NCBI GenBank assembly: GCA_902634325.1
Contig: CACPJP010000009.1
Coordinates: forward strand, 1-35,585
Source of the DNA: an uncultured Pelagibacteraceae bacterium
GTDB lineage: Bacteria; Pseudomonadota; Alphaproteobacteria; Pelagibacterales; Pelagibacteraceae
Reading direction: 5' to 3'
DNA: 35,585 nucleotides
Shown: positions 1 to 13,792 of the stretch, piece by piece
Layout: each line of letters starts with the position of its first letter
Position numbering within the stretch: the stretch's first letter is position 1
Notes under the pieces: generated by a model
What the model was told of the DNA's origin: nothing
The model's input: the letters and a program-made list of their open reading frames with translations, nothing else
Databases searched by the model: none
Made by a program: the position numbers and the translations under genes

Positions 1-56
1 AATTAATTAAGATTATGATTGAAAATGATTTAAGAATTGAGACTGATAAGCAATAA
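1..56 (+). CDS. 3' end of an upstream coding region (partial)
   Basis: An open frame enters from the left edge and ends at TAA 54-56, encoding about 18 residues that end in IENDLRIETDKQ. Its stop overlaps the ATG of the next gene by one base (TAATG), the coupling expected inside an operon. Too little is visible to name the product. It probably belongs to the same surface-glycan cluster as the genes that follow, but that rests only on position. Confidence 0.5.
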   Translation, partial: LIKIMIENDLRIETDKQ

Positions 57-769
57 TGTCTTTAAAAACTTCAATTATACTTTGTACATATAATGAATCA
101 AAATACATTGAAAATACAATAAGAAAATTAGAAGGCAATATATCTAATCTAGAGCTAGTTATTGTTGATGATAATTCATCCGATGGAACAGTTGAAATAA
201 TAAAAAAATTAAATGAAAAAAATCAATATAAAACTATTCTTAGAAAAAGAAGTAGAAGTTTGGCTTCGGCTTTTACAAGGGGAATAGTAGAAACAACAGG
301 TGATTATATTGGTTGGTTAGATACTAATATGGATGAACTTGCACCTAAATTTAATGAAATGATAAAAGAACTTGAGTCAGGAAATGATATCGTAATTTTA
401 TCTAGGTATGTACCAGGAGGAGGAGATGAAAGAATCTTGCTCAGATCAATAGGAAGTAAATATTTTAATTTATTTGCAAGAACTATACTTGGCTTACCAA
501 TAAAAGATCTTACTAATTCGGTATTTTTAATGAAAAGAGAAGTGATGAATGAAGTTACTTTTTTGGGTTATGGACACGGAGAATTTTTTGTAGAATTTTT
601 ATATAATGCTCATAAAAAGAATTTTATTATTAAGGAAATACCACATGTTCAAAAAAAAGATCAAAGTTCAGGAGAGAGCAAATCAGCTCCAAATTTAATC
701 AAATTCTTTTATTATGGTGCAATGTATGTTTTAAGAGTATTTGTAGCAATTTTAAGAAAGCGAAATTAA
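56..769 (+). CDS. Family 2 glycosyltransferase, dolichol/polyprenyl-phosphate mannosyltransferase-like
   Basis: A 237-residue GT-A fold glycosyltransferase. The N-terminus TSIILCTYNES and the VIVDDNSSDGT segment near residues 34-44 are the nucleotide-sugar binding start of family 2. The later RYVPGGG and the region around residues 120-165 resemble the polyprenyl-phosphate mannose synthase (DPM1) subgroup, which moves a sugar from a nucleotide donor to a lipid phosphate or related acceptor at the inner membrane. The usual DAD-type metal motif reads LDTNMDE here, so the second acid of DxD is displaced. There is no clear C-terminal transmembrane anchor. The start overlaps the previous stop. It lies in a run of sugar-modifying genes, so a role in surface glycan assembly is inferred; donor and acceptor cannot be read from the sequence. 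Confidence 0.8.
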   Translation: MSLKTSIILCTYNESKYIENTIRKLEGNISNLELVIVDDNSSDGTVEIIKKLNEKNQYKTILRKRSRSLASAFTRGIVETTGDYIGWLDTNMDELAPKFNEMIKELESGNDIVILSRYVPGGGDERILLRSIGSKYFNLFARTILGLPIKDLTNSVFLMKREVMNEVTFLGYGHGEFFVEFLYNAHKKNFIIKEIPHVQKKDQSSGESKSAPNLIKFFYYGAMYVLRVFVAILRKRN

Positions 770-771
770 AA

Positions 772-1208
772 ATGATAGAAAAAGTTATATATAAAAAAAA
801 GTTACAAGCACTAATTGTTAGAGGAAAATATAGAAAAAAAAAGGTATAACCTTTTTTACTCCAAATGAATCAGTGCAGCAATTTGGTTATATGAATCATA
901 AAAAAACTCATGTTATTAAACCTCATTTACACAAAAAAAGAAAAAGTACAAGAATTTCACATACCAGCGAAGTCCTTCTAATAATGAAAGGAGTTATAAG
1001 AGTTGATTTTTATAATTCCTCAAAAAAATATTTATTGAGCAAGGTTTTGAGAGAGAAAGATATTATAATGCTTGTACATGGTGCTCATGGTTTTAAAGTT
1101 CTCAAAGATGTTGAGATGCTCGAAGTTAAACAAGGACCTTATAGCTTAATCAAAGACAAGGTTAAATTTGAAAAAGTAGATGAAAAAAAAATTAAGATCA
1201 AAAAATAA
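772..1208 (+). pseudogene. WxcM/FdtA-type cupin (sugar 3,4-ketoisomerase-like), frameshifted at an A9 run
   Basis: The family N-terminus, starting MIEKVIYKKKLQALIVRG, is encoded from ATG 772 but ends at TAA 847-849. The rest of the cupin continues in the next frame from about 843 (GITFFTPNESVQQFGYMN) to the stop at 1206-1208. The two pieces join at nine consecutive A (834-842); one more A would give a single continuous protein of about 145 residues. The cupin core is clear: HVIKPHLH metal-binding type histidines, a SEVLLIMKGVIRVDFY strand pair and the ending EMLEVKQGPY. Relatives act on dTDP-keto-sugars next to an aminotransferase, and a DegT gene does follow. The GTG at 873 that opens the longer downstream frame is an internal valine, not a real start. 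This could be a true mutation, an assembly error in a homopolymer, or a slippage-rescued gene. Confidence 0.75.
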
Positions 1209-2334
1209 ATTCATACCTGTAAACGTACCAAGAATCTTCAAAGAAGAAAAAGTTAATGTTAAAGACTGTATGGATACAGGATGGATTTCATCTGAAGGTT
1301 CGTATGTGAAAAAATTTGAAAGTAAATTTGCTAAATATAATAAAAGAAGTTATGCGATAGCAGTATCAAGCGGTACAGCAGCTCTCGAAATTGCAATTAA
1401 ATCTTTAAGTTTAAAAAGGGGTGATGAGATTATAATTCCAACTTTTTCAATAATATCGACTGTATTGTGTGTTATCAAATTTGGATTAAAGCCAGTATTA
1501 GTAGATTCTAATTTAAACACTTGGAATATGGATGTTGATGAGGTTATAAAAAAAATAACAAACAGAACAAAAGCTATAATTGTTACTCATATTTATGGAT
1601 TTCCTGTCGATATGAGAAAAATTTTAAATATAGCAAGAAAAAGGAGAATAAGAATTGTTGAAGATGCAGCCGAAATGATAGGTCAGACTTATTACAACAA
1701 AAAGTGTGGTAGCTTTGGAGATATAAGTACTTTTAGTTTTTACGCCAACAAACATATTACCACAGGTGAAGGAGGAATGATTTTAACTAATGAAAAAAAA
1801 TTGTATCAAAAGTGCAAATCATTAAGAAATTTATGTTTTGGAGATGGAAAAAATAGATTTAATCATGATGATATAGGATGGAATTACCGTATGACTAATT
1901 TACAAGCAGCAGTTGGGTGTGGACAATTAAAAAATATTTCGTGGATTATAAAAAGAAAAAGAGAAATTGGCAGAAGATATATGTCTTTATTAAGAAAAAG
2001 TAAAAAAATTCACATTCAACCTTATAAACTAAAATATTCTACAAATATATTTTGGGTTTATGGAGTTCTTTTAAAAAAAGGCATTGGTATTTCAAGAGAT
2101 AGAGTTGTTAAAAAACTAATGAATAGTAATATACAAACAAGAAATTTTTTCTTTCCAATGCACAAGCAAAAGATATTTAAAAAAATGAAAGTGTTTTCAA
2201 AAAACAAAAGGTTCAATAATGCTGATTTATTGTCGCAAAATGGATTTTATTTGCCCTCTGGCCTAGGAATAAGTAATTCAGAAATAGATTATGTAGGAAA
2301 AACATTGCTCCAAGTCTTAGAAAATAATATATAA
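1180..2334 (+). CDS. DegT/DnrJ/EryC1 family PLP-dependent sugar aminotransferase
   Basis: A 384-residue aminotransferase of the sugar-nucleotide type (PseC, PglE, perosamine synthetase group). It converts a keto-sugar nucleotide to an amino sugar using pyridoxal phosphate. Visible marks are the phosphate-binding SSGTAALE near residues 63-70, the EDAAE acid that holds the cofactor ring near 161-165, and the Schiff-base lysine K191 in FYANKHITTGEGG. The length is normal. The start at 1180 overlaps the 3' end of the cupin gene by 29 bases. Pairing with a keto-isomerase-like cupin fits synthesis of a 3- or 4-amino deoxy sugar for a surface glycan, but the exact sugar cannot be told. Confidence 0.88.
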   Translation: MKKKLRSKNKFIPVNVPRIFKEEKVNVKDCMDTGWISSEGSYVKKFESKFAKYNKRSYAIAVSSGTAALEIAIKSLSLKRGDEIIIPTFSIISTVLCVIKFGLKPVLVDSNLNTWNMDVDEVIKKITNRTKAIIVTHIYGFPVDMRKILNIARKRRIRIVEDAAEMIGQTYYNKKCGSFGDISTFSFYANKHITTGEGGMILTNEKKLYQKCKSLRNLCFGDGKNRFNHDDIGWNYRMTNLQAAVGCGQLKNISWIIKRKREIGRRYMSLLRKSKKIHIQPYKLKYSTNIFWVYGVLLKKGIGISRDRVVKKLMNSNIQTRNFFFPMHKQKIFKKMKVFSKNKRFNNADLLSQNGFYLPSGLGISNSEIDYVGKTLLQVLENNI

Positions 2335-2339
2335 ACCCA

Positions 2340-3125
2340 ATGCAAAAGAAAAAAATTCTCGTAATGGGACTTCCCGGATCTGGAAAAAGTTATCTTTGTG
2401 AAAGATTGTCAAAATTAATTGATGCTACTTGGATTAATGCAGATCAAGTTAGAAAAGATGCAAATGATTGGGATTTTAGTCCCGAAGGAAGATTGAGGCA
2501 ATCAAATAGGATGCGTAAACTATCTGAGAAAGCAATTAATGAAGGCAAGCACGCTTTAGCAGATTTTGTTTGTCCAACCCAAAAAACCAGAACAGATTTT
2601 AAAGCAGATTTTGTTATATGGATGAATACTATTTCCAAAGGTAGATTTGAAGATACAAATAAAATGTTCCAAGTTCCTGAAAAAAATGAAGTTAATTTTA
2701 TAGTTAAAGAAAAAAATGCAGATTTATATAAATTTTTGATTGCTGATAAAATTGAAAATTATACTTGGGATGATAAAAAACCTACAGCTCAAATGTTAGG
2801 AAGATGGCAGCCTTGGCATACTGGACATCAAAAATTATTTGAGGAAATCATAAAAAAAACTGGGCAAGTTAATATTATGGTTAGAGATGTAAAGGGGGTT
2901 GGAGATAATCCTTTTGATTTTAAAACAGTTGAAAAAAATATAAAGGAGGCTCTAAAAGATTTTAAAAATAGAATAAAAATCACTCTAGTCCCAAACATTA
3001 CTAATATTTGTTATGGAAGAGGTGTGGGCTATAAGATTGAAGAAATAGTTTTAGACGATGAAACTCAAAAAATTTCTGCTACAAAAATAAGAAAGAAAAT
3101 GAGAGAAGAAGGTTTGCTAAATTAA
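2340..3125 (+). CDS. Fused P-loop kinase (APS-kinase-like) and HxGH nucleotidyltransferase
   Basis: A 261-residue two-domain protein. Residues 1-135 resemble adenylylsulfate kinase-type P-loop kinases, with Walker A GLPGSGKS at 10-17 and a conserved NADQVRKD near 33-40. Residues about 145-261 form a cytidylyltransferase-like domain with GRWQPWHTGH (HxGH-type signature, HTGH at 160-163) and ISATKIR at 245-251, the counterpart of the ISSTxxR motif. The order suggests that one polypeptide phosphorylates a small molecule and then transfers a nucleotide to it, giving an activated donor group. Sulfate activation is possible from the kinase half, but no sulfurylase partner is visible. It starts 5 bases after the aminotransferase, so it is probably in the same operon and serves surface-glycan decoration. 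Confidence 0.78.
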   Translation: MQKKKILVMGLPGSGKSYLCERLSKLIDATWINADQVRKDANDWDFSPEGRLRQSNRMRKLSEKAINEGKHALADFVCPTQKTRTDFKADFVIWMNTISKGRFEDTNKMFQVPEKNEVNFIVKEKNADLYKFLIADKIENYTWDDKKPTAQMLGRWQPWHTGHQKLFEEIIKKTGQVNIMVRDVKGVGDNPFDFKTVEKNIKEALKDFKNRIKITLVPNITNICYGRGVGYKIEEIVLDDETQKISATKIRKKMREEGLLN

Positions 3126-3142: not shown

Positions 3143-4801
3143 TTATTTTATTAATTTTAGTCTAATATAAAAATCATATATTCTTTGTTCGAATAAATTG
3201 TTTGGAAAAAAATCTTTTCGAAAGAAATTTTTTAAAAATCTATATATTCTTATTGGTCTTGAAAGGTATATTGCAAGGTAAGACAACGCAAATCCAATAA
3301 ATCTTAAAAAAATTAACATTTTACTTGAAACATTTTCACAATACGATTGCGATTGTGTAAAATCCATATAAACCATCAACTTTTTAAAGTAATCATCATC
3401 AACGTTTATTTTTTTTTCTTTTTTTAACTTTTCAAACAATTCTGATCCTGGATAAGGTGAAAACATTGAGTATATAACGTCTGAAACACCAAATCTTAAA
3501 GAGCAGTAAACTCCAAAAAAAACTGACTTTAAACAATCAAGCAATGTTTCATGAGGAAACCCGAGAATAAAATTTAGTTTTACTGTATGACCTACTTTAA
3601 CAGCAGACTTTATACTTTTTACAAGTCTATCTAACTTAACTCTTTTTTTTATCATGTTAAGACTTTTTTCGCTTCCGCTTTCTGGAGCATAACAAATAAA
3701 GGCGCAGCCTGATTCATAAAGGGCCTTTAAAGTTTCTTCATCTAATACTTCAGATCTCGTTCCTATAGGTAGCTGCCATGTAATATTATTTATATTTCTT
3801 TTTTTAAGTTCATTACAAAAATCTAAAATCCAATCTTTTTTAATTATTGCAGTTAGATCAAAAAATTCAAAATCGTTAGCTTTATATTCTTTTATTAACC
3901 ATTCAATTTCGTCCACAATTTCTTTGGGATCTCTCATTATATATCTTGTAGTCCACATGGTTGGGCTAGAACAGAAAGTACATTGATATGGGCATCCTCT
4001 AGTAGCTAAGATAGGCATATTTCTAAGCTTACCCTTAGCCAAACCAATAGTAAAAAAATCTGTAAAATAATTTTCAGGTTTTAATAAATGCCATGCTGGT
4101 CTGGGAAGTTTATCAATATGTTGAATCCTTTTACTTGGTCCGTTATCAATAAATTTATTTTCCTTATTGTTGATGAAAGATATTCCCGGTATATCTTGTA
4201 CACTCTTGTTGGTAAACAAATTGTGAGTAAACTCAAGCATTGAAAATTCACCTTCTCCTCTAATGACATAGTCAATTGATGGGCAATCTCTCAAGGTATA
4301 CTCTGGTATAGCCGAAGGATGTTCACCTCCAGCAACTATAATAATTTTTGGAAATTTCTTTTTTATTCTTTGAATAAGTATTTTATGCATAGGCCATTCT
4401 TGAGAAAACATTAAAGATATACCAAAAATAAAAGTGTTAGGATCAATACTTTCTAATATTTCTTGTGATGTTAATCCCTGGAGATTATAAAGATTGTCTT
4501 CAGACCTTTTTACTTTTACTAGCTTTTGTTCACCGGTAGAATCAATAATTCTAGTCTTATACCCAGCTTTTTCAAGAACCCCTCCTACGTAAGCAAGACC
4601 CAAAGGCAAAGTGACAGGTTGGCTATATGAATACTTTGGTAAAACAGCAAAAGGCCTACATAGTGTTACGACTCTCTTGTCATTATTTGGCGCTTTGAAA
4701 GAATTTAGCGAAGAATCCATTTGTCTTGGATCTAACTCTTTCACCCAGTTTCGATTTGGAGTGTGTGCTGGTTTAAAAATTATATCATCTTTTTTTAACA
4801 T
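3143..4801 (-). CDS. B12-binding-type radical SAM protein
   Basis: A 552-residue class B type radical SAM enzyme. The N-terminal part (about 45-190) has the cobalamin-binding Rossmann layout with PLGLAYVGGVLEKAGY and the VAGGEHPSAIPE stretch near 156-167. The radical SAM core follows, with cysteines 270, 274 and 277 in RGCPYQCTFC binding the 4Fe-4S cluster that cleaves S-adenosylmethionine. Such enzymes often methylate or rearrange unreactive carbons; the substrate is not evident. The gene converges with the kinase fusion, with 17 bases between stops. Its ATG is only 15 bases from the 3' end of the tRNA-Thr remnant, and AAAGGAAA upstream may serve as ribosome binding site. Before the island arrived the gene would have stood directly behind tRNA-Thr. 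Confidence 0.85.
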   Translation of the reverse strand: MLKKDDIIFKPAHTPNRNWVKELDPRQMDSSLNSFKAPNNDKRVVTLCRPFAVLPKYSYSQPVTLPLGLAYVGGVLEKAGYKTRIIDSTGEQKLVKVKRSEDNLYNLQGLTSQEILESIDPNTFIFGISLMFSQEWPMHKILIQRIKKKFPKIIIVAGGEHPSAIPEYTLRDCPSIDYVIRGEGEFSMLEFTHNLFTNKSVQDIPGISFINNKENKFIDNGPSKRIQHIDKLPRPAWHLLKPENYFTDFFTIGLAKGKLRNMPILATRGCPYQCTFCSSPTMWTTRYIMRDPKEIVDEIEWLIKEYKANDFEFFDLTAIIKKDWILDFCNELKKRNINNITWQLPIGTRSEVLDEETLKALYESGCAFICYAPESGSEKSLNMIKKRVKLDRLVKSIKSAVKVGHTVKLNFILGFPHETLLDCLKSVFFGVYCSLRFGVSDVIYSMFSPYPGSELFEKLKKEKKINVDDDYFKKLMVYMDFTQSQSYCENVSSKMLIFLRFIGFALSYLAIYLSRPIRIYRFLKNFFRKDFFPNNLFEQRIYDFYIRLKLIK

Positions 4802-4949: not shown

Positions 4950-4976
4950 TTAGAAATTTTTTAAAGTTATATGAAT

Positions 4977-5005
4977 TTGTATTTTAGATGTTATAGTTTT
5001 ATTAA
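4977..5005 (+). promoter_or_regulatory. Possible promoter of the cytosine methyltransferase
   Basis: TTGTAT (4977-4982) and TATTAA (5000-5005) are separated by 17 bases. The predicted transcription start near 5012 would leave a very short leader before ATG 5022. The hexamers match only part of the consensus and such matches are common in AT-rich DNA. Confidence 0.3.
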
Positions 5006-5021
5006 TAACGTTACTGATTCT

Positions 5022-6041
5022 ATGAAGAAATTAAAATCTATAGATTTATTCGCCGGTGTCGGCGGAATGCGGCTTTCACTTAATAAAGCTCTCAAAAAAA
5101 TGGGTCTTGAAGATAACTGCAAATTGTATTCAGAAATAAATCTATACTGTCGACAAACATACGACGCCAACTTTCCTGATACTCCTTTAATTAAAGACAT
5201 AAAATCAATCCAAAGAAAAGATATTCGGAATAAAATTCCCGATCATGATATTCTTCTTGCTGGTTTTCCCTGCCAACCTTTTTCAAAAGCAGGAATTTCA
5301 AATAGAAACTTCCTAAAAAGACCCCACGGCTTTAATGATAAAAGCCAGGGCAATTTATTCTTTTATATATTGGAAATTATAAATAAAAAAAAACCTAAGG
5401 CTTTTCTTCTAGAAAATGTTCAACATTTACAGAATTATGATAATGGCAATGCCTTAAAGCTAATACTGGGATCACTTAGAAAAAATTACTATGTACCAGA
5501 ACCTGAAATTTTAGATGCAAAAGATTTTGGCTTAGCACAGCAAAGAAGGAGAATTTTTATAGTAGGTTTTTTGAAAAAAAATGCAAATTTCATTTATCCA
5601 AAACCCACATATAAAAATACAAAAGTTGCAGATTTTTTAGATTGCCATCCAAAAAAAAAATATATTATTTCTGATCTGCTTTGGGAAAGTCACCAAAAAA
5701 GAAGAAAAAGAAATGAAATGGCGGGCAAAGGTTTTGGTTATAAAATGACATATCCTGCGGATAGATTCACAAGAACTATATCTTCCAGATATTTTAAGGA
5801 TGGCGGAGAATGTTTAGTTTATAGGGGTAAAAATAATAATCCAAGAATGCTGTCTCCAAGGGAGATTTTCAGACTGCAAGGTTTCCCTGAAAGCTTTAAA
5901 ATACCAGTATCAAATACGCAAGCCTACCAACAGGCTGGGAATGCAGTTCCCATTAGTGTTGTAGAAAAAATTTGTATTAATATTATTGATTATCTGCTTG
6001 ATAAAGAAAAAAATAAAACTTTAAAACTAAAAGCTGGTTAA
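5022..6041 (+). CDS. DNA C5-cytosine methyltransferase
   Basis: Transfers a methyl group from SAM to carbon 5 of cytosine in a specific DNA sequence; 339 residues, within the usual range. All core motifs are visible: motif I DLFAGVGG (8-15), motif IV GFPCQPFS (81-88) with catalytic Cys84, motif VI ENV (131-133), motif VIII QQRRRIFIVG (173-182), and motif X QAGNAVP near the C-terminus. The target-recognition region lies between about 220 and 275 and is short. The start is taken at ATG 5022 because the family normally begins just before motif I; an in-frame ATG at 4971 would add 17 unlike residues. The stop is 7 bases from the stop of the convergent AIPR gene. It is presumably the protective or marking enzyme of the defence cluster. 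Confidence 0.93.
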   Translation: MKKLKSIDLFAGVGGMRLSLNKALKKMGLEDNCKLYSEINLYCRQTYDANFPDTPLIKDIKSIQRKDIRNKIPDHDILLAGFPCQPFSKAGISNRNFLKRPHGFNDKSQGNLFFYILEIINKKKPKAFLLENVQHLQNYDNGNALKLILGSLRKNYYVPEPEILDAKDFGLAQQRRRIFIVGFLKKNANFIYPKPTYKNTKVADFLDCHPKKKYIISDLLWESHQKRRKRNEMAGKGFGYKMTYPADRFTRTISSRYFKDGGECLVYRGKNNNPRMLSPREIFRLQGFPESFKIPVSNTQAYQQAGNAVPISVVEKICINIIDYLLDKEKNKTLKLKAG

Positions 6042-6048
6042 TGTAAGA

Positions 6049-8055
6049 CTATATAATATCGGCTTCTTCTGCTTTAACAATTGTTTTTAATGCACTCTTC
6101 GCTTGTTTGGGAGATGGTTGTCTTTTCCAGTTTTGTAGTGATTGACCCCAGAGACTTTGCAAGATTTGTATTTGGATATAATGGACATCGTCTCTTTCCA
6201 TTGCCCAAACAATAATTTTTTCCCAATCTTTTGTGGCTATACTTTTGCATTTTTTAATATTATCCATATCTTCTGGTGAAAATAGTTCTTTTGTTGATTT
6301 GACAGATTTTCCAGATAATTTTTTTACATTTGTAAACTCGGGTGGAGTTTTTGTAAAATCAAAATTTCTGTCAACTAAATCCTCCCAGCACTCTTCCTTT
6401 TTACACCATTCGGAAATATTTTTTCCCTTGGCAGTTTTTTGTATTGTTTCATAGATCTTAAGTGTCCATTTGTTAATTAAATCCTTAAATTCACGCGACA
6501 AATCTTGATCAATCCAAATTAAATTAAAATTTATTTTTCTACTGGTGTTGTATGATATCATTGAGACAGTATAATTAAGAACTTGGGATCTATATCCAGC
6601 GATAGAACTATTATTTTTTATTATTTTTGCAGTTTTATTAAATAAAATTGAAATTGCACAATACTTTTGAAAAAAATCTTCGTCAGGATTTTCATGAAAT
6701 TTTTTATCATTGAGTGATTTCATAAAAGTAACAAAGTTTTTCTGGGCGCCCATACATGCTATATGTGGATCTAAATAATGCCAACAATTAATATATTTTG
6801 CTAAATCTTCTTTGGTAAATTTCATATTTGGGAGAGACACTTCAAGAAGTTTAGATTTTTTATTTTTACCAAGATCTTTTTGTTTCATTTTTTGTAACTG
6901 ATATTCTCCTCTCATTCTTTCATAAAACCATAGCTGACCTTGTGAAGTTCTTATTTTATTTGAAAGTTTTTTTATCTTCATGTGAAATTCATGATTTGAT
7001 GAGAAGTCAGCTTTCTTAACAACATTCTGTGTATTGGCAGAACTTGAAATTTTTGGAACAATTTCTTCAATATCTTCTTTTTTAACAAGTGTAATTTTAC
7101 CAGGAACCATTACATCAGTAAAATTTGCGCTATTTTGTTTTTTAGTTCTAAAGAGTGTAGCTACAGTTTGTCCTCCATTAACAATTTGAAATCCACTCGC
7201 AGAGGTAAGGTATGATCCCTCTTTATCCTGGGCAATTTCAATATTATCAACTACAACTGCTATACCATTGTTATAAGAAAAAAAACGTGAAGGCTCTTCT
7301 AAAAGTGTTTCTTGTATTCCGCGATTAATTTTTGTTTTTAACTGAAGAAAAGATCTTACATTTAAATTCATTAATCTTTGTCCAAAAAGCTTATAAATGT
7401 TATAGAGCACTTCGCCTGGAAAAATTGCCATATAACTGCTAATTTTATTTTTAGTTTTATGAGCAAGCATACAACGTACTTTATGTTTAGATCTTGTAAA
7501 ATCTATATAGATGTCGGTGGATTCGGCGCCGCCCAAACTTGATTTATAAATTTGATTTAGATCATAGAGATAATTCTGAAATTCAATCTTACCCTCTTTT
7601 CTTGTTTTGGGAAGAGTACTACAAACACAATTGGTAAATACAAAAATTCTAACGGTAGTTATATCACTAGAATTATTAAATATAGTTTTTGATATATCGT
7701 AAGCTTCCTCTTTTGAGTTTATTTTTTGATAAAGTTTTTTGGTTGATTGTAAATAAAAATTTTTTGCATATTCAATTAGTTCAAGAATTTTTCCAAACTT
7801 TATTTCTTCGATCTTTTCTGAAGAATCATAGTGTGTTATAAATAAATCAAGTCTTTTTTCTTCCTCGCTAAATGAAAATCCATTTATTTGACTCTTGTCC
7901 TTTTCAAAATATTTAAGTTCATAATCAGAAATTGATCCATTATCATACAGTATATCAGTGTATATTTTTGTAAGGGTTGAACTAGGCTGTTCTTCCGTAT
8001 CTTCAATTTCATTTTTAATTCTAAAAAAAAATTCTTTTAGTTCAGTGCTTTTCAT
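6049..8055 (-). CDS. AIPR-domain protein (abortive infection phage resistance family)
   Basis: A 668-residue protein recognised from the AIPR signature: RFFSYNNGIA (257-266), QIVNGGQTVATL (290-301) and SSANTQNVVKKADFSSN (338-354). Members sit in restriction-like clusters and phage resistance loci; their biochemical activity was not settled to my knowledge, although a nuclease or nucleic-acid-binding role is often suggested. The N-terminal 200 residues and the C-terminal third show no motif I recognise. It is the last gene of the minus-strand operon, and its start overlaps the DUF4420 gene by 4 bases (ATGA type), so translation is probably coupled. It ends against the convergent methyltransferase. 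Confidence 0.88.
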   Translation of the reverse strand: MKSTELKEFFFRIKNEIEDTEEQPSSTLTKIYTDILYDNGSISDYELKYFEKDKSQINGFSFSEEEKRLDLFITHYDSSEKIEEIKFGKILELIEYAKNFYLQSTKKLYQKINSKEEAYDISKTIFNNSSDITTVRIFVFTNCVCSTLPKTRKEGKIEFQNYLYDLNQIYKSSLGGAESTDIYIDFTRSKHKVRCMLAHKTKNKISSYMAIFPGEVLYNIYKLFGQRLMNLNVRSFLQLKTKINRGIQETLLEEPSRFFSYNNGIAVVVDNIEIAQDKEGSYLTSASGFQIVNGGQTVATLFRTKKQNSANFTDVMVPGKITLVKKEDIEEIVPKISSSANTQNVVKKADFSSNHEFHMKIKKLSNKIRTSQGQLWFYERMRGEYQLQKMKQKDLGKNKKSKLLEVSLPNMKFTKEDLAKYINCWHYLDPHIACMGAQKNFVTFMKSLNDKKFHENPDEDFFQKYCAISILFNKTAKIIKNNSSIAGYRSQVLNYTVSMISYNTSRKINFNLIWIDQDLSREFKDLINKWTLKIYETIQKTAKGKNISEWCKKEECWEDLVDRNFDFTKTPPEFTNVKKLSGKSVKSTKELFSPEDMDNIKKCKSIATKDWEKIIVWAMERDDVHYIQIQILQSLWGQSLQNWKRQPSPKQAKSALKTIVKAEEADII

Positions 8056-9032
8056 ATATTTTTCAAAAACTCATCTTCCATAATTCTAAAACTTTCACAT
8101 TTTTCAAGATCAATTTTGTAAGTTATAGAAAGGTCAGATATTTCAAGAGGAACTTCAACTTTTTTAATATAGGGAAAATCGTCACTTATTTTGTAATAGT
8201 TTGTCTTATCAACTGAATATTTTTCCATATACTCATCTTTATGCATGTCTAGGTATCTACATTGAGTTAATTTTAATAAAAAATCATTATGTAAGTTTGC
8301 AGATTCAATTTTTAATTTATTTATATACTCATCAATTATTCCATTTAGTGAAATTCCAGAGCTTGATTTCTTCATTTGTAAAAAAACAAGATCCAATCTT
8401 TTATCAAAAACAGGGGCTATTTGATTAGTACTTGATGTATTAATTTTTTTTGTATTGGTAACGGTTGTTTTGACTTCTATCAATTTGTTTTCTGTCGTAA
8501 AATCATGTTTTTTTGAAGGACCTGTCCATGAAGATATTGCATTTTCATTAGTCAATTTTTTTGTAAGAATTTTGCTCAAAACATAAACCTCGCCGTATAA
8601 GCCTATCTCGGATTCTTTAGTAAGTTTTCTTGGCAAGTCTTCATCTTCAAAGAAATTTTTTCCTGAATTTAATTCTTCAAAGAAAAGTTGAATGCTTTTT
8701 AGTCCTGATAGTTTATTAAGGTAAATTTTTGCAATAATAAGATTTACAATTTTAATAAAAAAGTCCTCATGATTTTTGTTATTTAAATACATTTCTATAA
8801 CGTTTGAGCCAAAAACTATTTCCCAGCCCTTTGCTTTTGGAAAAATATTTTCACTAACTTTTTGAGTGTTTTTTAATTTAATTCTTATTCCAGGAAGATC
8901 TTTTTTATTAATTGTGTACCAAAAATTATCAAAAGCTAAAATTTCTACTGATTTATTTTTATCTTCCTTTCTTAATAAATTTAATTTTTTCCATAATTTG
9001 CCGAGTTTTGTATAATAATCATCTATATTCAT
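8052..9032 (-). CDS. DUF4420-type PD-(D/E)XK motif protein, probable nuclease subunit
   Basis: A 326-residue protein with a restriction-endonuclease-like active site in its middle: the helix GLYGEVYVLSKIL carries E148, then WTGPSKKHDFTTENKLIEVKTT carries D177, E186 and K188, a complete E...D...ExK set. The WxGP-x4-HDF spacing is typical of the DUF4420 group associated with Z1/MutL clusters. It most likely cuts DNA when directed by the ATPases of the operon. The N-terminal part, with FPKAKGWEIVFG around residues 64-75, also fits the family. It overlaps its downstream partner by 4 bases and shares one base with the Z1 gene upstream, so it is tightly embedded in the operon. Confidence 0.87.
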   Translation of the reverse strand: MNIDDYYTKLGKLWKKLNLLRKEDKNKSVEILAFDNFWYTINKKDLPGIRIKLKNTQKVSENIFPKAKGWEIVFGSNVIEMYLNNKNHEDFFIKIVNLIIAKIYLNKLSGLKSIQLFFEELNSGKNFFEDEDLPRKLTKESEIGLYGEVYVLSKILTKKLTNENAISSWTGPSKKHDFTTENKLIEVKTTVTNTKKINTSSTNQIAPVFDKRLDLVFLQMKKSSSGISLNGIIDEYINKLKIESANLHNDFLLKLTQCRYLDMHKDEYMEKYSVDKTNYYKISDDFPYIKKVEVPLEISDLSITYKIDLEKCESFRIMEDEFLKNI

Positions 9033-12000
9033 TAACTGTATAAGTCAGGATCAAAAATTTCTTTGTACTCCGCCATTCTACGTTCTCTGGCGGGCTCATT
9101 CATTGCAACATTATATATGAGTTGATCTTCGTCGTTCTCATCTCTACTAGGTGGTATTATAATCTGCCAACCAATATAGATATCTTTGTCTTTATCGAAT
9201 CCTTTATCTAAAAGCTTTGTTGACCAAGGATAAATTATAAATAATCCTTCTTTTCTTTTTTGTCTAATTTTTGGTTTAAAGCTGTCAGGCAGCCAATTAA
9301 CTGTTTTTCTTTTAATAACACATTTCCCTGTTTTTTTATAAAGGTTTATCCAACTATCAACACCTTCATTAAATACTTCTTTTTTAATATCCATAAATTC
9401 TGCATTAGGATCTTGCAAAGTTTTGATTGAAAAAATATCTGCTGGCTTGATTGGCGTCCGTTGTTGTATAGCCAACTCGATTTTTCCTTTTTTAAATTTA
9501 ATTAAAGGATATTCTTTTGATTTTTTAATACTAAATAAACCAAGGTTCCAATTACTAATTTTTTTATACTTGCTAAGTAAATTAATTTGAGTTGCAATTA
9601 ATTTACATGTCCAATCCCTCATTGTTGGTGGACTTTTATATTTTGCAAAATAATTGATCAACAATTTTACATCTATATTTCTCCATAAATAAGCATCTTT
9701 TAAAGTAACAACTTTAGAATTTTTTGAAATTTTTTCTTTTATTTCATTTAAAGATAAGTTTATATCTATTTTATTTTCACTGTCTCCAGTAATTGCTTTT
9801 GGTATCCAAATATTACCTTTTAATAGGTTTTTGTTTATTTGATCGGTTCTTTCATAGCTGTCCGGAAGTTTGTCAATAAGTTCATTTGTGATCTTAATAT
9901 TATAAAGTCTTTCTTCTTTTGAATAATAAACAATAGGAGTATGATTCTTTGCTGAAAACGATGAAAAAGGCTCCTTTATAACTAAAATGTCTTTCGCCTT
10001 CGTTTTAGAAACAAGGTTCCAGCCTGGAAAACATGGAACTTCAACGGCATAGTCTTCGGGACTTAATTCTAAATCCATCAATTCAGCAAACTTTTCTCTT
10101 GCTTTTTCCATTGTAAATGAAAATTGTCTAAACAAAACATGCAATGTCTTTGGGCAATAAACTCTCCATAAATCTTCATAGCCCTTTCTATATCCAAACC
10201 ATCTTCCCATTTGTATTAAAGTGTCCGAAGCTGGTATTTTTGCTATTCTTAAAAAGTAACTTACAGAAAGTCCATCAAGAGTAAGTCCTCTTGAAAGAGC
10301 AGCTCCACCAACAACTATTACATTCCACCCATTTTTTTTTTCCTCATAAGCAAGATTATCATCTGATGTACTATTAATTCTTATTAATTCAATTTTTTTA
10401 GAATCTTCTGTTAAAAGTAATAATATTTTATTCCAAATTTTCTCAAATTTGATTTGCTTATCCTCTGGATATTTTGTTGTATCTATATTTTTTTTAATAT
10501 CATTTTCCCAAATATTGATAAATTCTTTTTTTATTGTATCTGTGGTTTTTGCATCTTGGCCATAGCTGATTTTTTCTGTTAAATCATCTAGATATTTTTT
10601 TATTTGACCCATAATTATATTCTGAACATTTGTAAATCTACTAACGTGAACAAGCATAGAATTATGATGTGCTTCCTTTATTCTAAATGACTTGATAGCA
10701 ATATTTATATAAAATGAATTTATTGCATCTTTCAAACTTTGAGGTATCGTGTCTTCCTCTTTGTAACGGCATGAGTGTGAGATCCCGTGATACAATGGAA
10801 GCCATCCATTAACTGGGTCTTCTCCTTTTTTACCTTCTTTTCTATACTTCTCATCTCTTTTTTTTTCATCTAATTTACCATTTTTCATGAAATCCGGAGC
10901 ATCAAAATCATCTCTATAATCATATACCCATTTGACTTGTGGTTTTTCATCCTTATCAATTTGTTCTGACAAACTCACAATTTCATTATCTGGATCATAA
11001 TTTTTCTCAGCCACGCCAAAGACATCTTCTGGACCAATATGAGAATCATAACGTGGAAGCAGTTTTATAAAATCTCGAGGAAAAATATCTAAGCCTTCAT
11101 CATATTTAAATGAGGAATAATTAATAAAAGCGTTAGCCAGCGGTGTTGCTGTATAGCCAACATACGCACTTTTTACAAAACATTGTAATATTTTTCTTAT
11201 CAATTGATTTGTTTTTGAAGGATCAGCATTTCTAAAAGTTTCAAGCTCTTCTTCGGTCATGTCACTTTGTGATTTCTTTGACTTTCTCGCAGAAATATCT
11301 ATTGATGCACTATCACATTCGTCATCTATGATTAATATAGGCTGAGAGCACATTAATTGAAATTTTGGAAGTTTTTTTAGAATATCTTTATTACTCCATT
11401 TAACTTCATCCCATTTCCATTCTTTATCTTTATTTATTGGCATTCCTTTTTGTCCATCAAGCCAAATAAGTATATTTGTTAAAATAGGCACAATTTTTTT
11501 GCATACTATTATCAGTGGATCTTTATGTGTAATTGATATTTTTTCTGCAGTATTTAGATCAAAATCATTTTCTACTTCTACTTTTCTAATTCCTTCTGGG
11601 TAATGATATTTGGGTCTTTTGGTTGCAAAAAAAACTTTGTTACAATCTCCTTTTTGAGAAGCTGAAATAAGATTTTCTTCTAATCTTTTTTGAGTTTGTG
11701 CTCTTAATGAATTGTGTAAACCAGTTAATACTATTATTATTTTATATCCTGAATCTACCGCTTTAGCTATTAATCCTGTGTAATTTGATGTTTTTCCTGA
11801 TTGAACATCTCCCACGACCATTCCTTTTGTTTCCCATTTTCCTTGTCTCTTTGGGTCTTCTAAGTCAGATAAAATTGAGTCTGTCGACGTGTCCATATCA
11901 ATAAATGCACTTCCTAATTTAGATGCAATTTTACTTTTATAATAAGCAAACTGAGAGTTTGTGCTGTTAGAATTTTTCCATAATTTTCTATTTTCAAATA

Positions 12001-12265
12001 ACCAAGGTTTATGGTCTTCTCTCTTTTTTGCTCTTAAAGTCATATCGGCTTCAATTACTTGAGCATAAGAACTATTAAGAAATTTTTTTAAATCATTTTC
12101 AAATTTTTTTGCCATTGTAAAATCTTTAAGAAAATCTTTTAGCAAATCCTCTATTTCTTTTGCTTTCGATGGATACCACTCGTTTGGATTTTTAATTTTA
12201 TTTTTAGTTGCAAAAGTTGATTTATAAGCTATCAACAAATCTATTAAATTATTTAGTTCACTCAT
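9032..12265 (-). CDS. Z1-domain superfamily II ATPase
   Basis: A 1077-residue DNA translocase/helicase-like protein. Walker A is GDVQSGKTSNY (152-162), Walker B is ILIIDDECDSAS (310-321), a motif III-like GYTATPLANAF follows, and the C-terminal lobe has GGAALSRGLTLDGL with DTLIQMGRWFGYRKGYEDL, a typical motif V/VI pair of Z1 proteins. Z1 proteins occur almost only beside MutL-like ATPases, AIPR proteins and methylases in restriction-type clusters, where they are thought to move along or remodel DNA and license the nuclease. The gene starts within the stop region of the MutL-like gene (4-base overlap) and ends one base into the next gene. Confidence 0.92.
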   Translation of the reverse strand: MSELNNLIDLLIAYKSTFATKNKIKNPNEWYPSKAKEIEDLLKDFLKDFTMAKKFENDLKKFLNSSYAQVIEADMTLRAKKREDHKPWLFENRKLWKNSNSTNSQFAYYKSKIASKLGSAFIDMDTSTDSILSDLEDPKRQGKWETKGMVVGDVQSGKTSNYTGLIAKAVDSGYKIIIVLTGLHNSLRAQTQKRLEENLISASQKGDCNKVFFATKRPKYHYPEGIRKVEVENDFDLNTAEKISITHKDPLIIVCKKIVPILTNILIWLDGQKGMPINKDKEWKWDEVKWSNKDILKKLPKFQLMCSQPILIIDDECDSASIDISARKSKKSQSDMTEEELETFRNADPSKTNQLIRKILQCFVKSAYVGYTATPLANAFINYSSFKYDEGLDIFPRDFIKLLPRYDSHIGPEDVFGVAEKNYDPDNEIVSLSEQIDKDEKPQVKWVYDYRDDFDAPDFMKNGKLDEKKRDEKYRKEGKKGEDPVNGWLPLYHGISHSCRYKEEDTIPQSLKDAINSFYINIAIKSFRIKEAHHNSMLVHVSRFTNVQNIIMGQIKKYLDDLTEKISYGQDAKTTDTIKKEFINIWENDIKKNIDTTKYPEDKQIKFEKIWNKILLLLTEDSKKIELIRINSTSDDNLAYEEKKNGWNVIVVGGAALSRGLTLDGLSVSYFLRIAKIPASDTLIQMGRWFGYRKGYEDLWRVYCPKTLHVLFRQFSFTMEKAREKFAELMDLELSPEDYAVEVPCFPGWNLVSKTKAKDILVIKEPFSSFSAKNHTPIVYYSKEERLYNIKITNELIDKLPDSYERTDQINKNLLKGNIWIPKAITGDSENKIDINLSLNEIKEKISKNSKVVTLKDAYLWRNIDVKLLINYFAKYKSPPTMRDWTCKLIATQINLLSKYKKISNWNLGLFSIKKSKEYPLIKFKKGKIELAIQQRTPIKPADIFSIKTLQDPNAEFMDIKKEVFNEGVDSWINLYKKTGKCVIKRKTVNWLPDSFKPKIRQKRKEGLFIIYPWSTKLLDKGFDKDKDIYIGWQIIIPPSRDENDEDQLIYNVAMNEPARERRMAEYKEIFDPDLYS

Positions 12266-13449
12266 TTTAATCCCTTTATTGAAGTTTCAATTTTTGAAAG
12301 ATCTTCATCCGAAAGTACTTTATTTTTAAGCATTTTAATAAGCTCTTGTTTCTTTTTTAATTTTTCATCCACTGGTTCTTTGCTACTCTCATTATCTTCC
12401 ATTGTATTAATTTTTTCTAAATAATCTTTCCTTATTTTAATTAGACTTTTTCGCATTTTACTTGCTGCATAGTCTGGTATATTTACCTTATTTTTGGAAT
12501 GGGTTATCCAATCTCTGCTTGTTTCTATAGGAATCTCAACTTCAATTCTAAGTCTATTAAATTTTTCACTTGAACTCCAAAATCTATCCGTGTTTTTCTC
12601 TCCAAGCCCAAACCAACCGCCAAAATCAATTACTCTATTTTTTCTTAAGAAATATAAACCCTGTAGATCATTTTTACTTTTTCCCAAGTTTTCTTTTCCT
12701 GTATCCGCTGGAATTATATATGGTCTTAATATTGTTTTTCCCCCTTTAAGAAAACTGATCTCTGAATTTTCTAACTTTATAGTATTACTATCATTCTTAT
12801 AAAATGGATCAAAAGCTTTTGTTTTATTGTGAGTCTCTGTTCCGTTAAAATATAAATTTATTTGATTATTTAATAAGTACTTGTGATAAATTATTTTAAA
12901 ATGTTTTTTTGCTTTATCGCAATCATCATAAAAATTTGGACCTCTGTCTATAGCATGAAATTTTGAAATTCTATCTAATTCAGACCATAGAATAATTGTT
13001 CCACTTTTTTGATTTGTAAATTTATCTAAATGCTTCACTATAAATTTATGATTTATAGAACTTGGCATTTCATCAGTAATTCCATCTTTTAAACTAAGAG
13101 TTTTTCTAAGTAATTTATTTTTTTTAGTTATAACTGTAATAGATTTGCAATGATTGAATGAGCCAGTTTTTAATCCTAATCCATAAACCGAATGATCCTT
13201 TTCTCCCTGATCAACATGTTCATTTTTTGGAACTGCTAAAGCTTTATTAATAAGTTCGTTTTCGTCCATACCATTTCCATCATCCACAACCATTATAAAA
13301 GAATTTTTTCCTGAATCATCGCTCCAGTACATATAAGTCCAAATATTTTTTGCATTGTGTGTAATGCTATTATCCGCAAGTTCAGCTAACGATTGTTGTA
13401 ACGTATAACCCTGTGATCTAGTTTTTTCTAAATAAAAAGTTAATTCCAT
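12262..13449 (-). CDS. MutL/MORC-like GHKL ATPase
   Basis: A 395-residue ATP-binding protein of the Hsp90/MutL/histidine-kinase fold. The N box is LAELADNSI, with E23, D26 and N27 for Mg-ATP. The G1 box is VVDDGNGMD (54-62) and the ATP lid has YGLGLKTGSFNHC (89-101). Beyond residue 190 the sequence fits the S5-like second domain of MutL/MORC relatives (SRDWITHSKNK). In this class ATP binding is thought to clamp DNA and signal to the Z1 helicase. The longer frame begins at 13527 inside the previous gene, but ATG 13449 starts 4 bases after that gene's stop and begins directly at the conserved domain, so I chose it. The charged C-terminal tail, residues about 340-395, is probably a coiled coil. 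Confidence 0.88.
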   Translation of the reverse strand: MELTFYLEKTRSQGYTLQQSLAELADNSITHNAKNIWTYMYWSDDSGKNSFIMVVDDGNGMDENELINKALAVPKNEHVDQGEKDHSVYGLGLKTGSFNHCKSITVITKKNKLLRKTLSLKDGITDEMPSSINHKFIVKHLDKFTNQKSGTIILWSELDRISKFHAIDRGPNFYDDCDKAKKHFKIIYHKYLLNNQINLYFNGTETHNKTKAFDPFYKNDSNTIKLENSEISFLKGGKTILRPYIIPADTGKENLGKSKNDLQGLYFLRKNRVIDFGGWFGLGEKNTDRFWSSSEKFNRLRIEVEIPIETSRDWITHSKNKVNIPDYAASKMRKSLIKIRKDYLEKINTMEDNESSKEPVDEKLKKKQELIKMLKNKVLSDEDLSKIETSIKGLK

Positions 13450-13453
13450 TTTG

Positions 13454-13792
13454 TTAGTCCTGGTCGACAAACATATCCCATTCTTCTGCAATAATTTGAA
13501 AAGCAAACAATTCTTTTTGGTGAACAATTTTATCTGTTGCGACCATTTCTGATAATAACTTTATAGTTTTTTCTTTATCTTCCTTGACTTGAATTTTTTT
13601 TGAAATTTTTCTGCACTCTTCTGTAATATTTTCAACTTTTTCAACTTCTCTAACAATTTCATCGAGTTTTTCTTTTGAAATTTTTAACTTATTGGAAAGA
13701 TCATTTATCAATTCCTTTTCCTCTGCCATATAGACCTTGTCTGCAAATGCCATTAGAAGAACAAGTTTAAGAATTTTGTCGTTATTATTCAT
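13454..13792 (-). CDS. Small TerB-like protein, first cistron of the defence operon
   Basis: A 112-residue, helical, strongly charged protein. Residues 8-37 (KLVLLMAFADKVYMAEEKELINDLSNKLKI in part) and 79-105 (the LSEMVATDKIVHQKELFAFQ region) read like the two acidic helical halves of TerB folds, in which an AD...G/M...E pattern places carboxylates for a metal. TerB-like domains occur in tellurite-resistance and several phage-defence gene sets; their action is poorly known. The start has a good Shine-Dalgarno (GAGGGA) a few bases upstream, and the stop is 4 bases from the ATPase ATG. Leading the operon suggests a sensor or regulatory role, which is inference. The family call comes from pattern only and is moderate. 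Confidence 0.65.
   Translation of the reverse strand: MNNNDKILKLVLLMAFADKVYMAEEKELINDLSNKLKISKEKLDEIVREVEKVENITEECRKISKKIQVKEDKEKTIKLLSEMVATDKIVHQKELFAFQIIAEEWDMFVDQD

Follow-up and report, generated by a model that had tools for sequence, protein, structure and literature searches.

What does a polypeptide activate that joins a kinase to a nucleotidyltransferase and is encoded among surface-sugar genes of a Pelagibacteraceae bacterium? The window analysed here, a stretch of 35,585 nucleotides, is one whole contig of an uncultured member of this family (genome 727 kb, 61% complete), and the contig start truncates the operon upstream of the gene. The initial annotation, made from the sequence alone, had proposed that an APS-kinase-like domain and an HxGH nucleotidyltransferase activate one substrate in two steps, but had doubted that this substrate is APS, as no sulfate adenylyltransferase lies beside the gene. 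Below, K denotes the kinase half and N the nucleotidyltransferase half; G and L numbers are genomes and loci compared.

A genuine gene with two intact active sites

The kinase-nucleotidyltransferase fusion and its Walker A, HTGH and ISATKIR motifs were found exactly as first annotated (Table 1), and the upstream genes (GT2, WbuC-like cupin and DegT) agree with the surface-sugar operon implied there. The gene is genuine, since full-length homologues in viral contigs, homologues in phages and matches in related genomes rule out a chance ORF. In an alignment of 47 fused proteins (46 homologues and the window protein), invariant motif columns in K (G10, L11, P12, G15, K16, D35 and R38) and N (G154, R155, Q157, P158, H160, G162, H163, N219, G226, R227, V229, G230, Y231 and R251) indicate that both active sites are intact.

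Table 1 The fused gene, its domains and motifs, and the upstream genes (window positions)
Feature	Position	Strand	Basis or remark
Fused kinase-nucleotidyltransferase, candidate compact PAPS synthase	2340..3125	+	ORF with ATG start, 261 aa
K domain, residues 1-140, APS-kinase fold	2340..2759	+	PF01583 match and fold comparison
Walker A GLPGSGKS, residues 10-17	2367..2390	+	Sequence; columns mostly invariant
N domain, residues 141-261, HIGH-superfamily adenylyltransferase fold	2760..3122	+	Predicted structure, NMNAT profile match
HxGH motif HTGH, residues 160-163, within GRWQPWHTGH	2817..2828	+	Sequence, alignment
Family signature YGRxVGY, residues 225-231	3012..3032	+	G226, R227, V229, G230, Y231 invariant (47 sequences)
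ISATKIR motif, residues 245-251	3072..3092	+	Sequence, alignment
Glycosyltransferase family 2 (GT2) gene	56..769	+	Same direction as fusion
WbuC-like cupin	873..1208	+	NCBIfam 30.8 bits, below cut-off 42
DegT/LegC-type sugar aminotransferase	1180..2334	+	Ends 5 bases before fusion start

Among Pfam models, APS_kinase (PF01583; 26.4 bits, cut-off 21.1) and AAA_33 (29.9 bits, cut-off 27) match the fusion, CTP_transf_like scores slightly below its cut-off (18.9 versus 21 bits), and the Sat model PF01747 gave no match at E 0.01. The NCBIfam CysC equivalog TIGR00455 scores 19 bits on K, far below its cut-off of 138.7. The best NCBIfam matches are NMNAT models, which are likewise far below their cut-offs (24.7 versus 127 and 22.6 versus 181.2 bits).

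On the other side of the fusion, a B12-binding radical SAM gene (3143-4801) faces it, and L103 has a homologue of that gene at a distance of three genes from its fusion. Further downstream, PADLOC identified a defence island (4971-13527) with a C5 DNA methyltransferase (4971-6041, +) and MzaE (6049-8055), MzaD (8052-9032), MzaC (9032-12265) and MzaB (12262-13527), all on the minus strand. L103, L247 and L249, from the window's genus, share the order large gene, small gene, fused K-N, 188-aa gene; in L103 the large gene encodes a TonB plug and the small gene DUF6580.

Predicted structure and relatives of the two domains

The AlphaFold prediction of the whole fusion, built with 47 sequences, has two well-formed domains (mean pLDDT 93.8, pTM 0.86), in line with the architecture first described; N alone is predicted similarly well (pLDDT 92.9, pTM 0.83). 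Residues 1-140 superpose on Arabidopsis APS kinase (4fxp) with a VIA Z-score of 18.2 and 1.9 Å over 138 residues. Ranks 1-21 of the fold comparison are all APS kinases or APS-kinase-like domains, while the best non-APS kinase is gluconate kinase (Z 16.4) and shikimate kinase reaches 13.1. The APS-binding lid region of K is missing one canonical segment that the haloarchaeal kinase has. Because of this missing segment and a score far below the CysC cut-off, the substrate of K could have changed.

The nearest PDB sequence relatives of N are NMNATs (E 4.8e-10), and the matches of the same profile search up to E 1 include no ATP sulfurylase. By fold, N matches PPAT/NMNAT enzymes with Z-scores of 10.6-11.8 (PPAT 11.8, NMNAT 10.7). 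The Sat fold is absent among the 50 structural matches listed, and the fold relatives among these matches are enzymes that transfer AMP. Judged by sequence, N is a relative of NMNATs, not of Sat or CysD. With archaeal NMN adenylyltransferase (NadM) it shares the GRxQPxHxGH, NPF and ISxTxxR motifs and the fold, but N is shorter, keeps different gene company and carries YGRxVGY at the place of the nicotinamide-binding residues of NMNAT. The invariant R227 and the near-invariant R182 are unusual compared with NMNAT and could hold an oxyanion. HxGH, the R182 position, NP, GRxVGY and ISxTxxR are kept in 22 of 23 distinct N domains (24 rows, one duplicate), the exception being Microvirga.

Fused, split and single forms of the family

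Of 600 pattern candidates from viral contigs, 583 were confirmed and 80 kept, with full-length homologues of 44-73% identity. Homologues of ~40% identity occur in 5 of 50,697 phage records, and 15 of 72,556 plasmids gave a match, which in 10 of them covers 80% of the length or more. Genome contigs contributed 80 loci kept of 238, mostly from Pelagibacteraceae; homologues from outside this family came from SAR86, a Synechococcus MAG and Neomarinimicrobiota. The phage branch corresponds to phrog_10255, which is annotated only as 'kinase' and aligns to the window protein over residues 4-254 (E 7.2e-59). An RNA-repair kinase was also considered, with a weak phrog_505 match (E 0.008). We found no paper describing or naming the K-N family in the open-access literature.

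Among 101 related genomes, 55 carry K/N. The fused form is present in 15, including 13 of the 31 genomes of the window's genus, and the remainder mostly have K and N as neighbouring genes that occasionally overlap by a few bases. N occurs without K in G005, G006, G033, G046 and G054, and G379 has a K match only, at the extreme end of a contig. That the halves occur fused, split or singly marks a pathway of two parts. In GC-rich loci (L081 and L152), some of the genes are missed by the gene caller. As side observations, an autotransporter gene lies between K and N in L205 (9415-11703), with similar-sized genes there in L212, L223, L227 and L242, and PF03601 (YeiH-like) membrane proteins are encoded beside the SAR86 K-N (L172:8052-8951) and beside a SAR11 cysD (L144:6445-7521).

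K-N at positions expected or known for cysD

One sulfur context was found in an alphaproteobacterial genus (f25), where the order in L157 is CbiX, tetrapyrrole methylase (TP_methylase), sulfite reductase (NIR_SIR), PAPS_reduct, DUF2061, K and N, nearly gap-free from the methylase onward. L156 and L162 have the same gene order and gene sizes, and the PAPS_reduct gene is directly upstream of K in all four f25 genomes searched. In these four genomes, CysD is over the cut-off in none and Sat in one (G173); a weak CysD match in G401 is the PAPS_reduct gene itself. K-N ends a siroheme-cysI-cysH-DUF2061 operon at the position expected for cysD-cysN, and DUF2061 is fused to the Microvirga CysN. An operon for sulfate assimilation depends on APS, and no genes other than K-N are present here to provide it.

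A locus swap is seen in a sister family (f2) of SAR11, a group abundant in the ocean, where alternative cassettes sit between c12-c13-c16-c17 and c3-c6: K-N-c7-aprA-aprB-aprM in L098, and cysD-cysNC in L144 and L163. The flanks are type I secretion/inverse autotransporter genes on one side and the c3-c6 block on the other.

The two systems also tend to exclude each other across genomes. All P values here are from plain Fisher tests that ignore kinship, and they overstate independence because the genomes are related and mostly incomplete MAGs. K/N is present in none of 9 CysD-positive relatives versus 55 of 92 CysD-negative ones (P = 5e-4, kinship ignored), and within f2 in 0/6 versus 24/34 (P = 0.002, kinship ignored). 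Class-wide, CysD occurs in 1 of 13 strong K/N genomes versus ~221 of 372 (P = 2e-4, again ignoring kinship). A counter-example is G335, which encodes both a CysD relative and an intact N. Sat was considered as a third mutually exclusive partner, and this idea failed: four of the five Sat-positive relatives carry the cassette, as does G173. PAPS_reduct was not found in G530, G264, G245 or G527, and the K/N neighbours examined in G530, G264 and G527 include no sulfur genes except a TPR-sulfotransferase in G527.

Association with aprBA

aprA is over the cut-off in 40 of the 101 relatives and in none of the nine in which CysD is. K/N accompanies it in 39 of these 40, compared with 16 of 61 aprA-negative relatives (P = 6e-14, kinship ignored); in f2 the match is exact (24/24 versus 0/16). 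The two need not be linked: in the complete genomes G032, G045 and G053 they are ~47, 80 and 393 kb apart, and N of G045 looks frameshifted. N without K occurs in the arrangement TENA-N-aprM-aprB-aprA (L181, L208 and L209), and without aprA in G046 and at locus L229. In the window's genus, aprA is nearly missing (1/31). A 116-aa protein without a Pfam match directly adjoins AprA in many SAR11 aprBA loci (L096:5168-5518 and relatives).

These patterns bear on a gap in the literature. In the sections of PMC5069961 considered here, Ca. Pelagibacter is described as having aprBA but neither cysDNCHIJ nor sat; Table 3 of that paper lists cysC in exactly the aprA strains (5/7), while HIMB59, the sole cysD strain, has neither. 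The incompleteness of the pathways is stated again in the corresponding parts of PMC12636525. Both accounts, as far as these sections go, explain APS formation in SAR11 only as sulfite detoxification and do not state the fate of APS after AprBA. The Pelagibacter AprBA has been modelled (PMC2211403).

Sulfotransferase neighbours

PAPS is the universal sulfate donor, and sulfotransferase genes recur beside the cassette. Ten candidate proteins were checked. Eight, adjoining K/N or within three genes of it (L099, L160, L218, L228, L158, L154, L053 and L109), are sulfotransferases over the Pfam cut-off; the one in L108 is below it (24.3 versus 27), and the tenth is the c7 protein. A candidate in L244, with the same gene in L086, was unconfirmed by Pfam. 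On Haladaptatus and Halostagnicola plasmids, an annotated sulfotransferase is followed by a canonical APS kinase fused to N, and in Rhodoferax a K-only gene overlaps a gene annotated as sulfotransferase. In Microvirga, a sulfotransferase lies ~1 kb upstream of the fusion and cysD-cysN directly downstream; there the N motifs have decayed (HESH, GLDLGY and SPTAVQ) and K is intact.

PF13469 occurs in 53 of the 101 relatives (50 over the cut-off). K/N, CysD or Sat is present in 43 of these 53 versus 21 of the 48 others (P = 1.6e-4, kinship ignored), which leaves ten sulfotransferase-bearing relatives with none of the three and thus no known PAPS source. An unseeded Pfam search of viral records placed PF13469 over the cut-off in 8 of 50. 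Sulfotransferases made up 12 of 786 genes near the cassette versus 6 of 1319 far from it (P = 0.01; 142 of 207 loci kept after near-identical ones were dropped), a count to which we give no weight because the profile was seeded with cassette-near sulfotransferases. Within the window's genus, sulfotransferases do occur close to the fusion, but sparsely and in a minority of loci: together with two relatives, the genus has 2 Sulfotransfer_1 genes among 53 same-strand neighbours (15 loci), and L247 has one further sulfotransferase four genes from the fusion. The same 53 neighbours include sugar genes (SIS, epimerase, GT2 and DegT).

Proposed function and alternatives

Taken together, these observations point to a protein that is probably a compact PAPS synthase, with N as ATP sulfurylase and K as APS kinase. 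N is likely to be a sulfate adenylyltransferase because of the cysI-cysH operon, the cysD-cysNC swap, aprBA, the sulfotransferases and the decay of N beside cysDN. With N assigned from these contexts, the likely order is N first (sulfate to APS) and K second (APS to PAPS). The early idea of both domains acting successively on one substrate is probably right, whereas the missing sulfate adenylyltransferase, taken as an argument against APS, was probably read backwards: the gene contexts point to N itself.

We then propose a model for the pathway. N, as an NMNAT/PPAT-type HIGH adenylyltransferase, would join ATP-derived AMP to inorganic sulfate, with APS and PPi as products; K would phosphorylate APS to PAPS and so pull the unfavourable first step, and the fusion may pass APS from N to K. 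The probable users of PAPS in the window's lineage are sulfotransferases that modify a surface glycan. In the aprBA-bearing SAR11 relatives, we infer that N probably runs in reverse, converting APS and PPi to ATP and sulfate and thereby completing sulfite oxidation.

The proposed protein resembles animal PAPS synthase (PAPSS1/2) in its kinase-then-adenylyltransferase order and in the fold of K, which matches the PAPSS kinase domain. However, N is an NMNAT/PPAT-like domain of ~120 aa with no PF01747 match, and K is without part of the canonical lid. K-N would be smaller than any other PAPS synthase that we know of. CysD belongs to the PP-loop enzymes and depends on the GTPase CysN to drive it. 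K-N has neither a PP-loop enzyme nor a GTPase, but shares with CysD-CysNC/NodPQ the proposed reaction pair, the place in the operon (cysI-cysH-DUF2061) and the same SAR11 locus.

One alternative is NAD salvage, in which K would be a nicotinamide riboside kinase and N an NMN adenylyltransferase, similar to NadR (NMNAT plus NR kinase). NadR also fuses a HIGH adenylyltransferase to a P-loop kinase, but in reverse domain order, and the kinase here is of the APS-kinase type. The NMNAT relationship of N in the PDB and NCBIfam searches speaks for this reading, as does, in the phage branch, a NADAR gene that overlaps the homologue in Casjensviridae phages. It does so in Stenotrophomonas phage Bhz60 (L083:5559-6735), where an annotated cysteine dioxygenase also lies ~3 kb upstream. 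Archaeal NMNAT binds nicotinamide through Asn84/Trp87; in an ungapped alignment extension, these positions correspond to I223 and the invariant G226 of N, which speaks against this reading. NadR and NadM have been described in phages (PMC9503650 and PMC7824862, in the parts considered), and the former reports that phages carry NAD-remaking enzymes. However, the NMNAT scores far below cut-off count against NAD salvage, and it leaves the cysI-cysH, aprBA and sulfotransferase neighbours and the cysD exclusion unexplained, so we regard it as improbable.

It is also quite unlikely that the kinase phosphorylates an alcohol or sugar that N then turns into a CDP or ADP derivative for a surface glycan. 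This would suit the window's genus, where the fused gene is surrounded by surface-sugar operons, but the split copies lie in sulfur operons without sugar genes, the sugar-operon neighbours vary while K-N stays constant, and K is closest to APS kinases by fold. Nothing supports the CTP and alcohol phosphates first suggested as substrates: in both sequence and fold, N is closest to adenylyltransferases (NMNAT and PPAT). We give equally little credence to a reading in which K makes PAPS and N consumes or recycles APS otherwise, for example with phosphate as an ADP sulfurylase (APAT-like). The N-only loci with aprBA, where APS arises, would fit it; enzymes with HxGH and ISxTxxR motifs, however, release PPi from ATP, and the cysI-cysH operon and the sulfotransferase loci require APS synthesis. 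Three further systems were considered and rejected as a misfit to the sulfur contexts: the Campylobacter O-methyl phosphoramidate enzymes (a CysC-like CDP-amidate kinase with a cytidylyltransferase), CoA synthase, and riboflavin kinase/FAD synthase.

Implications of the proposed compact PAPS synthase

If N and K act as a PAPS synthase, an NMNAT-like ATP sulfurylase together with an APS kinase would fill the SAR11 gap of AprBA without cysDN or sat, and the source of PAPS for the sulfotransferases would be explained. A definite function may also emerge for many of the viral genes now labelled 'cysC' or 'kinase'; 62 phage cysC genes have been reported (PMC10914622, in the part considered). The protein could also serve as a compact tool for PAPS regeneration. 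With somewhat less assurance, we favour the broader view that N represents a third type of ATP sulfurylase, derived from NMNAT-like enzymes and distributed widely among SAR11, SAR86 and further marine lineages as well as haloarchaea and viruses. Together with an APS kinase it would form a very small PAPS synthase, and with AprBA it would allow SAR11 to oxidise sulfite to sulfate with a gain of ATP.
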